62,025 nucleotides of DNA from the NCBI GenBank assembly GCA_002162755.1, contig MAAS01000023.1:1-62025 (forward strand). Direction: 5' to 3'. Origin of the DNA: Gammaproteobacteria bacterium 50_400_T64. Lineage in GTDB: Bacteria; Pseudomonadota; Gammaproteobacteria; Pseudomonadales; Porticoccaceae. The notes under the pieces were generated by a model. It saw nothing but the letters and a program-made list of their open reading frames with translations. It did no database searches and was not told the DNA's origin. Of this stretch, positions 13,831 through 18,725 are shown piece after piece (positions within the stretch are counted from its first letter, which is position 1; every line of letters begins with the position of its first letter). A program made the translations under genes and the position numbers.

Positions 13831-13984
13831 TTGAGCCATTGCGGCGTCAACATCGTTAGCGTGTTGTTTGTCAGTGGGTCGTTTTTATCGTTATTATAAA
13901 TTTTCCGCTATGCGGAAACTAAGTGTCCAGTGCTTGGTCATATATTGCAGCTTGCAAGGTGACAGAGGCGGGCTAAATAAACGG

Positions 13985-14046: not shown

Positions 14047-14346
14047 ATGTCAGAACAAAAAATCAAACCTCTCGCGGCGGCAGTTGGTGCGGCATTTATG
14101 GTATCAGTAGCCCTTTCCCCCGTCGCTTCTGCGGCTAGCAACCCCTTTCAACTGAGCGAGCTCAGCAGTGGCTATGAAGTCGCTGGTAAAGATGCAGAAG
14201 GCAAATGTGGCGAAGGCAAGTGCGGTGAAGCCAAGCCTAAAGCAGAAACAGAAGGCAAGTGTGGTGAAGGTAAGTGCGGCGAAGCCAAGCCTAAAGCAGA
14301 AAGTGAAGGCAAATGTGGCGAAGGCAAATGCGGCGGTAAGTCGTAA
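14047..14346 (+). CDS. hvfA: HvfA/bufferin-type RiPP precursor with six EGKCG motifs
   Basis: Secreted ribosomal peptide precursor of the HvfA/bufferin family, in which an MNIO enzyme modifies cysteines of EGKCG motifs to yield a copper-binding peptide. The 99-residue product has a Sec signal peptide (charged start, hydrophobic 9-27, ASA cleavage near 29), the family motif NPFQLSELSSGYEVA (32-46), then three near-identical 18-residue units: two EGKCG motifs plus EAKPKAE(T/S), the last unit ending in GKS. All six cysteines (54, 59, 72, 77, 90, 95) sit in EGKCG. AGGAG precedes the ATG. The genes for the modifying enzyme and its partner follow directly. The modification is known for relatives; for this peptide it is inferred. 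Confidence 0.9.
   Translation: MSEQKIKPLAAAVGAAFMVSVALSPVASAASNPFQLSELSSGYEVAGKDAEGKCGEGKCGEAKPKAETEGKCGEGKCGEAKPKAESEGKCGEGKCGGKS
14197..14343 (+). repeat. 54-bp tandem repeat encoding EGKCG pairs
   Basis: Units at 14197-14250, 14251-14304 and a truncated 14305-14343 each encode EGKCGEGKCG followed by a spacer. They differ mainly at synonymous third positions, which suggests recent unit duplication under selection for the peptide. The repeat is coding, in frame, and confined to the precursor gene. Confidence 0.9.
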
Positions 14347-14352
14347 CTTCTC

Positions 14353-15222
14353 ATGACCAACAAGTATCCAGTAACAGGGGCAGGGCTGGGCCTACGGCGC
14401 AGCTTGTTAGAGGCACTTTCAAGTGCTGATGACGCTGTCGACTTTATGGAAGTGGCCCCTGAAAACTGGATAAATGTAGGGGGGCGTTTCGGCCGCCAGT
14501 TGCGCGAATACACCGAACGCTACCCCTTGTTATGCCACGGTTTGTCCCTGTCCATCGCCGGCCCCGCTGAACTGGACTGGGAGCTGTTAAAAAACATTAA
14601 GCAGTTCATGCGCGACCATCAGGTGCGTTGCTACTCCGAACATCTTAGTTATTGCAGTGACGATGGTCATCTCTATGACCTCTTGCCGATTCCTTTTACT
14701 GGCGATGCGGTTAAGTTTGTTGCCAATAGAATTCGTCAGGTGCAGGACTTCTTAGAACAACCCATGGCCATTGAAAATATTTCTTATTACGCAGCCCCTC
14801 AGCAAGAGCTGAGTGAAATTGATTTTATTTGTGCTGTGCTAGAAGAGGCTGACTGTGATTTGTTGCTCGATGTCAATAATATTTACGTCAACAGCATTAA
14901 TCACGGTTACGATGCGGACGATTTCCTCGCCGCATTACCGGGTGAGAGAATCGCCTACGGCCATATTGCGGGCCATTTTGTCGAGGCTGAAGATTTATTG
15001 ATTGATACCCATGGCGCGGATGTGATCGATCCGGTTTGGCGCTTGCTCGATAGCGCCTATCAACACTTCGGGGTTTTCCCCACGCTGCTTGAACGGGACT
15101 TTAATTTACCCCCGGTCAATGAATTGCTGGCTGAAGTAGACGCTATTAAAATGCGGCAAAAAGGCGCTGTTATTGCCTTGCCTGAAAACGTTGATAGCGA
15201 TCAGCGTGAGCTTCAAGCGTAG
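14353..15222 (+). CDS. hvfB: MNIO family RiPP-modifying oxygenase (DUF692)
   Basis: Multinuclear non-heme iron-dependent oxidase that modifies cysteines of the HvfA/bufferin precursor in the cytoplasm. TIM-barrel family landmarks in order: GAGLGLR (9-15), [10 protein letters not shown] (30-39), [10 protein letters not shown] (61-70), SEHLSY (95-100), AIENISYY (139-146), [10 protein letters not shown] (171-180), NHG (183-185), YGHIAGH (202-208), DTHG (218-221) and LLERDF (245-250). The His, Glu, Asp and Asn positions used for iron binding in the family are therefore present. 289 residues, normal length. It starts 7 bp after the precursor stop with no strong ribosome site, so coupling is likely. 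The C-terminal partner gene follows 11 bp later. Confidence 0.93.
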
Positions 15223-15233
15223 CGTTATTGACG

Positions 15234-16025
15234 ATGACTAATGTGAATGAGCGCAGTGAAAATAACGCCAAACTGTCTTTTCAATCAGGCCAGTTTGCCT
15301 TTGCGGCACATCTGCGTGACCCCGCAGTAAACCCGGCACCGGCTGATATTGAAGACCGCCGCGTGGCGATTTATCGAGACCTTATTTACAATAATATAGA
15401 AGCCTTTTTGAGTGGTGGCTTTCCTGTGTTGCGCAGCTTAATGAGTGACGATAGCTGGCATCAGTTGGTGCGTGGCTTTGTTAAAGATCACCGCTGTCAT
15501 ACGCCTTATTTTCTTGAGATCAGTCAGGAGTTCTTACTTTATCTCCGTGAAGGTAAGGCCTGCATTCCCGATCAACTCCCTTTTATTCTTGAGCTTGCCC
15601 ACTATGAATGGGTTGAACTGGCCCTCGATGTGTCGCCCGAAATATTACCTGAGCAAACAACGGACACTACTTTATCGGTCGCTTTACTCGATGCCAGTTT
15701 GCAAATATCACCCCTGGCCTGGCGCCTAAACTACAACTACCCAGTGCACCAAATCAGTGTTGATAACCAGCCCCTGGAAGCGCCAGAACAGCCAACGTCG
15801 CTGGTGGTTTATCGCGGTCCCGATGAGCAAATACACTTCTTTGAAAGTAATGCAGTAACGATGCGACTATTGCAACTGCTAGAAGACGGGCAGCTAAGTG
15901 CTCGCCAGGCGCTGCAACAAGTAGCCATTGAACTACAGCACCCTGAGCCTGAAATCCTTGTTGCTATGGGTGAAAGCATTATTCAGCAGTTATTGGATCT
16001 ATCCATTCTCTATCACCAGCCTTAA
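15234..16025 (+). CDS. hvfC: DUF2063 RiPP partner protein (HvfC-like)
   Basis: Partner of MNIO enzymes; family members bind the precursor leader and present it to the oxygenase. The N-terminal DUF2063 domain is recognisable (about residues 14-100: FAAHLRDP, RVAIYRDLIYNNIEAFLSGGFPVL, HTPYFLEISQEFLLYL); the C-terminal half is the less conserved second domain. I take ATG 15234 (263 residues); a TTG two codons earlier is possible, and neither has a clear ribosome site. It closes the three-gene cluster. A DoxX-like fourth gene (HvfD), found in many relatives, is absent: the next gene is a porin with its own promoter. Confidence 0.9.
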   Translation: MTNVNERSENNAKLSFQSGQFAFAAHLRDPAVNPAPADIEDRRVAIYRDLIYNNIEAFLSGGFPVLRSLMSDDSWHQLVRGFVKDHRCHTPYFLEISQEFLLYLREGKACIPDQLPFILELAHYEWVELALDVSPEILPEQTTDTTLSVALLDASLQISPLAWRLNYNYPVHQISVDNQPLEAPEQPTSLVVYRGPDEQIHFFESNAVTMRLLQLLEDGQLSARQALQQVAIELQHPEPEILVAMGESIIQQLLDLSILYHQP

Positions 16026-16174: not shown

Positions 16175-17179
16175 ATGATGAGAAAAACCACTTTGGCCGT
16201 AGCGATTGCATCGGCATCAGCACTGGCACTTCCTGTTTCAGCCTACGCGGTTGGCCCAATCGACGGCAGTGTTTACGGTAAAGTAAATATCAGTGTTGTT
16301 AACGATGACAATGGTACTGATGACCAAATGGAATTGAACAGCAATGCCTCGCGTATTGGTGTTAAAGGCAAAGCTAAATTGACGGATACGCTTTATGTTA
16401 TCTATAAGGCTGAGTACGAGTCTTATTGGGACGATGGTGACAAGAACGGCAATACATTTAGCCAGCGAAATATTATCGGTGGCTTAAAAGGTGACTTCGG
16501 TACTATCTGGGGCGGTAGGCACGATACCCCAACTAAGCTGGCACAGAAGAAGGTTGACCTGTTTAACGATCTCGAAGGCGATATCAAGCAGGTGATGGCG
16601 GGTGAGACTCGTGCCTCCAACATCGTTAACTACACCACCCCTAAATTTAGTGGCTTCTCTGCTTCTGTTGCGACTATCTTCGGTGAAGATCGTAGCGATA
16701 ATGATAAAGATGGCTTCTTCGATAGCTACTCAGCTGTTGCTCAATATGAAGTTGATGGCGTGTATGTCGCTGTCGCTATTGATGAAAATGTTAAGTCAGG
16801 CAGTAAGTCTCAAGGCATGGGTAAGGATTACGTCAACATCTTTCGTGTTGTCGGTCAATTTCCCATCGGCCCCGTCACTTTGGGTGCCATGTGGCAGAAT
16901 GCTGAAGAAGGCGACAGTGCTGCAACCGGTGTAAAGCTGGATGAAGACAGCTGGCATGTTAGTGCCAAGTGGAAAGTGGGTAACGGATACACGTTGAAAG
17001 CTCAGTACACTGAGTCGGATGATGACGTGTCTGACAACGATGCTGACATGATGTCTTTCGGTCTTGATAAGAAGCTGGGTAAGAAAACCAAGGTCTTCGC
17101 TTTTTATACCACGTTGGATAAAAGCACAGCGGCTGACGATTCAGACTGGATTGGTGTTGGACTTGAGCATAAGTTCTAG
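16175..17179 (+). CDS. Gram-negative porin, probably phosphate-starvation regulated
   Basis: Outer-membrane beta-barrel porin of the trimeric general-porin type (334 residues). Signal peptide MRKTTLAVAIASASALALPVS with cleavage near AYA (about 25). The barrel start GSVYGKVNISV, the strand pair RNIIGGLKGDFGTIWGGRHDTP and an aromatic C-terminus ending in Phe (GVGLEHKF), needed for BAM recognition, are visible; the loops are Asp-rich. GAGGGG precedes tandem ATGs at 16175 and 16178. A Pho box with matching -10 lies about 70-125 bp upstream, and a strong terminator follows, so it is probably monocistronic. Anion or phosphate selectivity is suggested by regulation only, since acidic loops do not argue for it. 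Confidence 0.9.
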   Translation: MMRKTTLAVAIASASALALPVSAYAVGPIDGSVYGKVNISVVNDDNGTDDQMELNSNASRIGVKGKAKLTDTLYVIYKAEYESYWDDGDKNGNTFSQRNIIGGLKGDFGTIWGGRHDTPTKLAQKKVDLFNDLEGDIKQVMAGETRASNIVNYTTPKFSGFSASVATIFGEDRSDNDKDGFFDSYSAVAQYEVDGVYVAVAIDENVKSGSKSQGMGKDYVNIFRVVGQFPIGPVTLGAMWQNAEEGDSAATGVKLDEDSWHVSAKWKVGNGYTLKAQYTESDDDVSDNDADMMSFGLDKKLGKKTKVFAFYTTLDKSTAADDSDWIGVGLEHKF

Positions 17180-17221
17180 GTCGAGTATCTGATATGTAGC
17201 ATCTTTTAGATGTTGCGTTCT

Positions 17222-17258
17222 ACAGCCGGAGATTGCAGAATCTCCGGCTGTTTTATTT
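17222..17258 (+). terminator. Rho-independent terminator of the porin gene
   Basis: Perfect 13-bp inverted repeat ACAGCCGGAGATT / AATCTCCGGCTGT with a GCAG loop (17222-17251), followed by TTTATTT. It lies 43 bp after the porin stop. Confidence 0.93.
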
Positions 17259-17296
17259 GTATGATTACTTCGTGTGCCGATAGAGGTTTTAAATTC

Positions 17297-17782
17297 ATGA
17301 GAGTTTGTCTAGTTACTACCCTGTTATGTTGCGCTCTGTACCCCGTCAGTCTATTCGCGGCTAGTGGGGATAAGAGTGCTCCAGCTGAAGTCAATTGTGA
17401 AGAAAGTGTCGATGCGGCTGATGACATGAACTTTGCCGATAATATTATCGAATGCAATGATGAAGCTGTGATTATTTACGATAAAACATCGCATAAAAAG
17501 TTTATGACTCGCAAGGCTTTGCCTCTAAAGACCTATGAAAAACAGCAGCGGAGTGGGACAAGCACTGTGATTGTGGAGGCGCCGGTTCATCTGCCCGGAA
17601 CTACCTTTATTATCCGTTCGGCTTATAAACTGGATACTCCTCAAGCGGCTTTGGCACCGCTGCACCAGCAAATGGCGACCTACTGTCCTTACGGTTGGGA
17701 GCTGGAGCGTCAGTGGAGTCGCCCTGTTGAGGCAGACTACTACCTACACTACGAATTCACTTGTGCAGATATTGCCCAGTAA
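17297..17782 (+). CDS. Hypothetical secreted protein
   Basis: Not recognised. ATG 17297 is chosen because AGAGG lies 10 nt upstream and the product then begins with a clear Sec signal peptide (MRVCLVTTLLCCALYPVSLFA, cleavage near residue 22). Longer in-frame starts would run back through the porin terminator. The mature part (about 140 residues) holds an acidic stretch with cysteines, a TSHKKFMTRKALPL segment and a C-terminal region with CPYGWELERQWSR. Four mature cysteines could form two periplasmic disulfides. It is flanked by terminators on both sides and so is probably a single-gene unit. Confidence 0.75.
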   Translation: MRVCLVTTLLCCALYPVSLFAASGDKSAPAEVNCEESVDAADDMNFADNIIECNDEAVIIYDKTSHKKFMTRKALPLKTYEKQQRSGTSTVIVEAPVHLPGTTFIIRSAYKLDTPQAALAPLHQQMATYCPYGWELERQWSRPVEADYYLHYEFTCADIAQ

Positions 17783-18014: not shown

Positions 18015-18725
18015 ATGTTACTGAAAGTTAGTGTAATAAGGCATATGTTGTTACTTGCTTTGTTGATGCCGGGGCTGGTGATTGCGGGATCAACTGAAAA
18101 CGACCCCTTCGAGAGTTACAATAGAGTCATATTCTCCTTTAACGATAAGGTTGATCGCTGGGTGCTAAAGCCAGTGACCAAAGGCTATCTTTTTGTTACG
18201 CCTGATTTTTTGGAACGTGGTGTATCGCGGATGTTCTCCAATATTAGTGAAGTACGCAATATTGTTAACGATGTATTACAGGGTAAAGCAGGGCAGGCCG
18301 GAAATGATACGGGCCGGTTGTTGATCAATTCGACCTTTGGTATCGCAGGTTTTTTTGATGTGGCACGACATGCGGGTCTCGAAAAGTCAGATGGCGAAGA
18401 TTATGGCCAAACTTTTGGTGTCTGGGGCGTTGAGGAAGGAGCCTATCTTGTATTGCCCCTGTTGGGGCCGCGTACACTGAGAGATACGCCAGGAATTCTA
18501 CTGGATATTTTCTTAGACCCCGTTGGGGTAATTAACCATGTGCCGACACGTAATCAGGTCTATGGTGTTCAAGTTGTTTCATTAAGAGCCGATTTGCTTG
18601 AAGCTGAAAAGCTAATTAGCGGTGACAGATATAGCTTTGTTAGAGATGTTTATTTGCAACGTCGTGAGTTTTTGGTTAATGATGGCGAAGTCGAAGATGA
18701 TTTCGGTGATGATGACTATAATTAG
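18015..18725 (+). CDS. mlaA: MlaA (VacJ) family phospholipid-asymmetry protein
   Basis: Outer-membrane component of the Mla pathway, which removes mislocalised phospholipids from the outer leaflet. The family signatures DPFESYNRVIFSFNDKVDRWVLKP (about 30-53), NDVLQGK, LLINSTFGIAGFFDVA and a DYGQTFGVWG stretch are clear; 236 residues is usual. Odd: the N-terminal hydrophobic segment (LLLALLMPGLVIAG) has no lipobox cysteine, so unlike E. coli MlaA this protein is probably not lipidated. The acidic tail EVEDDFGDDD is also notable. The partner-switch pair follows in the same direction, an order also seen in Pseudomonas. Confidence 0.93.
   Translation: MLLKVSVIRHMLLLALLMPGLVIAGSTENDPFESYNRVIFSFNDKVDRWVLKPVTKGYLFVTPDFLERGVSRMFSNISEVRNIVNDVLQGKAGQAGNDTGRLLINSTFGIAGFFDVARHAGLEKSDGEDYGQTFGVWGVEEGAYLVLPLLGPRTLRDTPGILLDIFLDPVGVINHVPTRNQVYGVQVVSLRADLLEAEKLISGDRYSFVRDVYLQRREFLVNDGEVEDDFGDDDYN

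Follow-up and report, generated by a model that had tools for sequence, protein, structure and literature searches.

The operon at 14047-16025 on contig MAAS01000023.1 of Gammaproteobacteria bacterium 50_400_T64 raises two questions: what its short, cysteine-rich precursor peptide is for, and what controls its expression. The window analyzed is the whole 62,025-nucleotide stretch of which this locus is part. A precursor, a multinuclear-iron-type enzyme (MNIO; DUF692) and a DUF2063 partner in tight spacing had been proposed from the sequence, and all three are borne out by open reading frames (ORFs) and by NCBIfam and Pfam profiles (Table 1). The genes lie on the plus strand with gaps of 6 and 5 nt, and the hvfC-type ORF starts at TTG, with an in-frame ATG two codons downstream. 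They are the only recognized genes between the end of hrpA (13830) and a porin gene (16175); neither a DoxX nor a regulator gene was seen in this interval by ORFs, NCBIfam or Pfam, and the original prediction was right that no copper-regulator gene adjoins the operon. Profile scores and conservation of the operon in relatives exclude chance, and the operon as read is genuine.

Table 1. Features of the operon and of the second MNIO locus in the same genome
Feature	Position	Strand	Basis
Sigma-E/ECF-like promoter element, GAAACT-N16-GTCATA	13915..13942	+	104 nt before hvfA start codon; conserved; function putative
hvfA-type RiPP precursor, 99 aa	14047..14346	+	Six EGKCG motifs (three pairs); passes NF050137, falls short of NF050188
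Probable Sec signal peptide, ~30 residues, end ...SPVASAA	14047..14136	+	Sequence inspection
Conserved leader motif NPFQLSELSSGY (NPF-x4-L-x2-GY)	14140..14175	+	NPF...GY in 49/49 family precursors
Core, three EGKCGEGKCG units, 54-bp tandem repeat	14197..14343	+	Motif count and repeat detection
hvfB-type MNIO (DUF692, PF05114) maturase, 289 aa	14353..15222	+	NF003818, PF05114, 3bww match, invariant residues
hvfC-type partner (DUF2063 + NGO1945 C-terminal domain/RRE), 265 aa	15228..16025	+	NF050145, PF09836, PF22106
Fused BufB-DUF2063 protein, 585 aa	L072:5565-7322 (own genome contig C29)	-	Between DUF2282 precursor and ECF sigma gene

The MNIO scored 444.7 bits with the HvfB model NF003818 (cut-off, 360) and 352.6 bits with PF05114 (MbnB_TglH_ChrH), and its 267.5 bits with the BufB model NF050167 fell under the cut-off of 310. 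The partner reached 299.9 bits with the HvfC model NF050145 (cut-off, 142) and exceeded the Pfam cut-offs for PF09836 (DUF2063; 89.5 bits) and PF22106 (NGO1945_C; 99.1 bits). For the precursor, NF050137 (KCGExKCG_twice, HvfA family metallophore) gave 76.8 bits against a cut-off of 19.5, and the stricter HvfA equivalog NF050188 gave 64.1 bits against 95 with nearly the whole model covered; a Pfam search of the precursor found nothing at E 0.01. Because the NF050188 score is below its cut-off, the precursor is HvfA-like and the strict HvfA name is withheld. An EGKCG-repeat precursor, an adjoining HvfB-type MNIO and a PME-type 1 (DUF2063 + RRE) partner are the genes of the Buf_EGKCG/oxazolin group (captophorin, Lys-Cys). 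The operon falls outside bufferin 1 (DUF2282), as the precursor gave no DUF2282 match at that threshold and the NF050167 score is too low.

The N terminus of the precursor, by eye, has a basic start, a hydrophobic stretch and an A-x-A motif. The NPF...GY motif follows the signal region in all 49 family precursors, a set picked by KCG motifs that comprises 48 siblings and the window, one per fetched locus. This leader is probably the recognition segment for the RRE of HvfC. The mmr leader is likewise conserved, and a model of its RRE contact has been given (PMC12538549); in the fontiphorin study every single alanine change before the core was tolerated (PMC12668002), which argues against one essential leader residue. 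As originally described, the six cysteines, the only ones in the precursor, all lie within EGKCG motifs, arranged as three EGKCGEGKCG pairs with EAKPKAE-T/S spacers. At the DNA level the core is a 54-bp tandem repeat of 2.6 copies with 88% matches.

Ten residues of the MNIO (H62, H97, E141, D173, N175, H204, H208, D218, H220, and E247) are the same in all 88 aligned rows; 8 rows are duplicates from contigs fetched twice, so that 80 sequences are distinct. The best PDB match is 3bww (E 2e-74), which is said to be closely homologous to HvfB and to have a diiron site (PMC13419390). Replacing any one of N175, D242, and H244 inactivates HvfB (PMC13419390); these correspond by position or motif to N175, D218, and H220 of the window enzyme, the pairing of D218/H220 with D242/H244 being our own motif match.

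Four characterized systems (oxazolin, fontiphorin, gonophorin, and bulbicupramide) each combine an MNIO and a DUF2063 partner with EGKCG repeats and are reported to carry thiooxazoles and to bind copper (PMC13419390, PMC12668002, PMC12538549). HvfA of Haemophilus influenzae, the oxazolin precursor, has three AEGKCGEGKCG motifs and six modified cysteines and is served by HvfB and HvfC homologues (PMC13419390); unlike the window operon, that of H. influenzae has a DoxX-like gene (HvfX), and its induction depends on RpoE2, an extracytoplasmic function (ECF) factor of another group (PMC7907618). MmrA of Microbulbifer, encoded by the marine cluster mmrABC, also carries three two-Cys cassettes in EGKCG units, with all six cysteines modified (loss of 24 H), and the product, bulbicupramide, binds Cu(I); the available text names no further biosynthetic gene, the flanking ORFs were judged nonparticipating, the leader is conserved and the core variable (5-8 Cys), and the three-Lys repeat before each cassette is missing from the window precursor (PMC12538549). 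Fontiphorin of Fontimonas thermophila (fonABC) is made by a minimal ABC cluster without DoxX and also has EGKCG repeats, but carries seven 5-thiooxazoles (PMC12668002). Bufferin 1 (DUF2282) clusters share the MNIO, the DUF2063 partner, the Sec signal, and the link to copper, and differ in their precursor family and in the occurrence of sigma and anti-sigma genes (PMC12452194). About 2,000 EGKCG precursors have been reported, and their core genes occur "in various combinations" (PMC12452194), and the window operon adds one species to this already described family of copper-peptide gene sets.

The profile matches of all three genes, the invariant MNIO residues, the 3bww homologue, and the four characterized relatives argue for a captophorin (oxazolin-type) RiPP operon, hvfABC, encoding a six-thiooxazole Cu(I) peptide from a sigma-E-like promoter read in trans, a reading to which we give a probability of about 85%; the precursor score below the HvfA equivalog cut-off counts against it. 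Gene identities, motifs, leader and promoter conservation, and neighborhood are observed at the locus itself; chemistry, copper binding, and export are proposed by analogy with the studied relatives. The RRE of HvfC would bind the precursor through the leader, and the iron enzyme HvfB would oxidize the six KCG cysteines to 5-thiooxazoles (-4 H each, -24 H in total). The modified peptide would then leave via Sec, and its thiols would bind Cu(I), probably in the periplasm. Of the multisite copper peptide originally proposed, homology upholds the family assignment and the chemistry, with copper binding as the role best supported by analogy; its status as a variant does not stand (see below).

The putative promoter provides the evidence on regulation. 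Alignment of seven upstream regions from the genus revealed a long conserved block, which reads GGAAACTAAGTGTCCAGTGCTTGGTCATA in the window, 104 nt before the ATG. Of 48 upstream regions in the family (the window and 47 siblings), 39 carry the strict pattern GAAACT-N15-17-GTC[AT][TGC]A, compared with a mean of 0.04 and a maximum of 1 in 100 dinucleotide shuffles and 0 on the opposite strand; the spacer was 16 in 38 of the 39. Sigma-E promoters of Escherichia coli have a spacer of about N16. The E. coli elements are GGAACTT and TCAAA (PMC2893595), compared with GAAACTA and GTCATA in the window; three of the nine family regions that miss the strict pattern have GGAACTT-N15-GTCAGA, in which the -35 part is exact. 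A relaxed pattern matched 44 of the 48 regions but was chosen after the strict misses had been seen, so the argument here draws on the strict counts alone.

The family loci also served to define the strict pattern, which leaves a sample from the order as its sole independent test. Forty regions from other families were hand-chosen among the MNIO matches listed, 33 with an EGKCG-type precursor and 7 without; upstream sequence can be read for 31 of the 33 (L193 lacks it and L184 has an unreadable start). The pattern occurred in 9 of the 33, from three family labels (f38, f41, and f47), and in none of 100 shuffles, and was absent from 22 of the 31. The absences include L186 and L203, whose precursors resemble MmrA only by description. 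No repeated tetramer pair was clearly prominent among the 24 order-sample misses (top count of 5, compared with 3 to 4 in shuffles). A further set of relatives (18 loci with upstream sequence) gave three matches, seemingly from family genomes already counted, and none outside the family of the window, so the element is not general. Genome-wide counts in the organism itself did not exceed controls, with two matches to the strict pattern versus three in the control and three to GRAACTT-N15-17-TCWRA versus 11 for the reversed pattern; these counts speak against a wide regulon, and only conservation at orthologous sites carries weight.

A candidate regulator is present: the genome encodes a homologue of RpoE, with an RseA/MucA-like gene directly after it (naming by eye), and this RpoE is found in all seven genus genomes. 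Upstream of rpoE in these genomes (seven, with the L160 row uninformative) a weak AAC-N17-GTCA-like conserved arrangement is discernible by eye. ECF control of such operons is already known, because induction of the corresponding H. influenzae operon by HOCl is RpoE2-dependent, RpoE2 being an ECF factor (PMC7907618), and homologous Neisseria genes are cotranscribed with the sigma-E gene, with the consensus GTMAGBWTT, a spacer of 12 to 13, and CGTCTAAH (PMC2893595, PMC7907618). The promoter type in the window appears to be a different wiring, and a literature search judged by titles and abstracts found no report of it upstream of such operons. The conserved promoter, together with the ECF dependence in H. 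influenzae, supports the regulatory part of the captophorin reading; judged from sequence, an envelope-stress sigma factor would act on it in trans, with transcription forming part of the envelope-stress response. Reading in trans could explain the missing local regulator. A CueR-like MerR gene lies on another contig of the genome (L169, contig C4) and scored 145.4 bits against a curated cut-off of 147.4. Tentatively, at odds slightly short of even, a common GAAACT-N16-GTC promoter would place the EGKCG operons of this family within the core sigma-E (RpoE/AlgU) regulon, together with a scattering of those from other families in the order.

The same promoter bears on the function of the peptide. 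It could be mainly an oxidant- or envelope-stress product, with thiols directed at oxidants in the periplasm such as HOCl and with copper binding as a secondary property, as the sigma-E-like element and the RpoE2-dependent HOCl induction in H. influenzae (PMC7907618) would allow. Mmr proteins of Microbulbifer were undetected with or without added copper, E. coli gained only slight protection or growth benefit, and the authors were hesitant to assign a copper-protection role (PMC12538549), which also weighs against such a role here. Against a primarily oxidant-related function, relatives bind copper (PMC12668002, PMC13419390, PMC12538549), bufferins raise growth under copper stress (PMC12452194), and no trial of a mature EGKCG peptide against oxidants was found in the literature available in part. 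This alternative is rather unlikely, and the Cu(I)-binding captophorin is preferred.

The original prediction went further, treating the three-unit, six-motif precursor without a DoxX partner as a variant with up to three paired metal sites. The locus does have exactly three pairs and no DoxX nearby, but a separate subfamily with defined metal stoichiometry, marked by the lack of DoxX, is highly improbable. HvfA and MmrA have the same form (PMC13419390, PMC12538549), and the number of perfect pairs in the 49 family precursors ranges from 1 to 6 (6 precursors with one pair, 13 each with two, three, and four, 3 with five, and 1 with six), so the novelty of the three-pair form is unsupported. How common this form is had been proposed as a check, and the answer of 13 in 49, with the literature on HvfA and MmrA, rules it out as unusual; the exact combination of six motifs, three pairs, and six cysteines occurs in 4 of the 49 (window, L083, L097, and L100). 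These precursors are fewer than all EGKCG places in the family, as some genomes hold further ones. The EGKCG model NF050137 matched in 57 of 112 genomes of the taxonomic family and an MNIO was present in 67; within the genus the figures are 6 of 7 and 7 of 7, and in the seventh genome the leader is present and the precursor partly reads N. Because motif number varies among 6, 7, and 8 within the genus and the core is a 54-bp DNA repeat, the number of repeat copies can probably drift freely. Copper loading of EGKCG peptides is moreover suspected to be stochastic, up to four Cu having been seen on an MBP fusion in the fontiphorin study (PMC12668002), contrary to the proposed stoichiometry. The restriction to ABC genes is no variant either, given the minimal cluster of fontiphorin and the mmr cluster, for which no extra biosynthetic gene is named.

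The absence of DoxX beside the operon was correctly observed but is not a special feature, as the sibling loci and a scan of downstream ORFs show. With a profile built from the genome's own two DoxX genes, DoxX was found in 1 of 48 sibling EGKCG loci (L133), within flanks of up to ~5 kb that are shorter at contig ends in some loci and with the proviso that a divergent DoxX may escape the profile. Of 89 downstream ORFs listed for family and other loci together, 73 were scanned with Pfam, with matches to MlaA (28), Porin_5 (9), Porin_O_P (8), Porin_4 (6), and DoxX (3). An ABC operon without a neighboring DoxX gene, often followed by an mlaA or porin gene, is usual in this family. Downstream of the operon the window encodes a Porin_4 porin (16175-17179), a 190-aa protein without a name (17210-17782), and MlaA (18015-18725). 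One family genome carries its HvfC homologue as two separate ORFs (L124:1230-1976), through frameshift, assembly error, or decay. The only RNA element found in the window with Rfam at gathering scores is a bacterial small SRP RNA (RF00169, 73 bits) at 36-132.

The rest of the genome, which the original prediction had proposed to search, holds two DoxX genes and a second MNIO locus, which is of the bufferin 1 type and includes an ECF sigma gene. The DoxX (PF07681) genes, on contigs C31 and C25, both lie beside DEAD-box-helicase-like genes (named by eye), and no MNIO gene was found in the 10 to 11 kb fetched around each. The second MNIO locus, on contig C29, has a DUF2282 (bufferin 1) precursor, a fused MNIO-partner protein of 585 aa, and an ECF sigma gene with a downstream 225-aa ORF. 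The fusion matches MNIO_BufB over residues 12 to 269 (332.6 bits, above cut-off) and DUF2063 over residues 309 to 403, so that both marks of bufferin 1, precursor and enzyme, are present. That the window locus is silent or relict, its MNIO serving another precursor, is very doubtful: the undetected Mmr proteins of the Microbulbifer proteome (PMC12538549) and this second, DUF2282-type precursor would favor it, but all three frames are intact, catalytic residues, leader, and repeats are conserved, the precursor ends 6 nt before the MNIO, and the DUF2282 locus has its own MNIO and partner.

Among the six other genomes of the genus, two (G091 and G090) have similar fused frames of 579 to 583 aa, and frames of 524 aa occur in two other family genomes (G024 and G046). 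Across 293 genomes sampled from the order, the matches listed included no other stop-free frame spanning both domains. For 369 genomes sampled from the class, several of the DUF2063 matches listed lie in open frames of at least 500 aa, and the MNIO-DUF2063 fusion may for this reason be scattered more widely. An engineered HvfB-HvfC fusion has been used (PMC13419390); no mention of natural fusions was found in the literature, in sources available in part, an absence that does not prove them missing from print.

The leads worth keeping from this locus are the conserved sigma-E-like promoter and the natural enzyme-partner fusion elsewhere in the genome. On the role of EGKCG peptides, copper sequestration, an oxidant-induced operon in Haemophilus, and proteins undetected under copper in Microbulbifer are all on record. 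If the family operons do belong to the sigma-E regulon, their peptides would be envelope-stress products rather than copper-responsive ones, which could bear on why the cluster of a relative is not induced by copper. The conserved promoter thereby offers a testable prediction of when EGKCG peptides are made.
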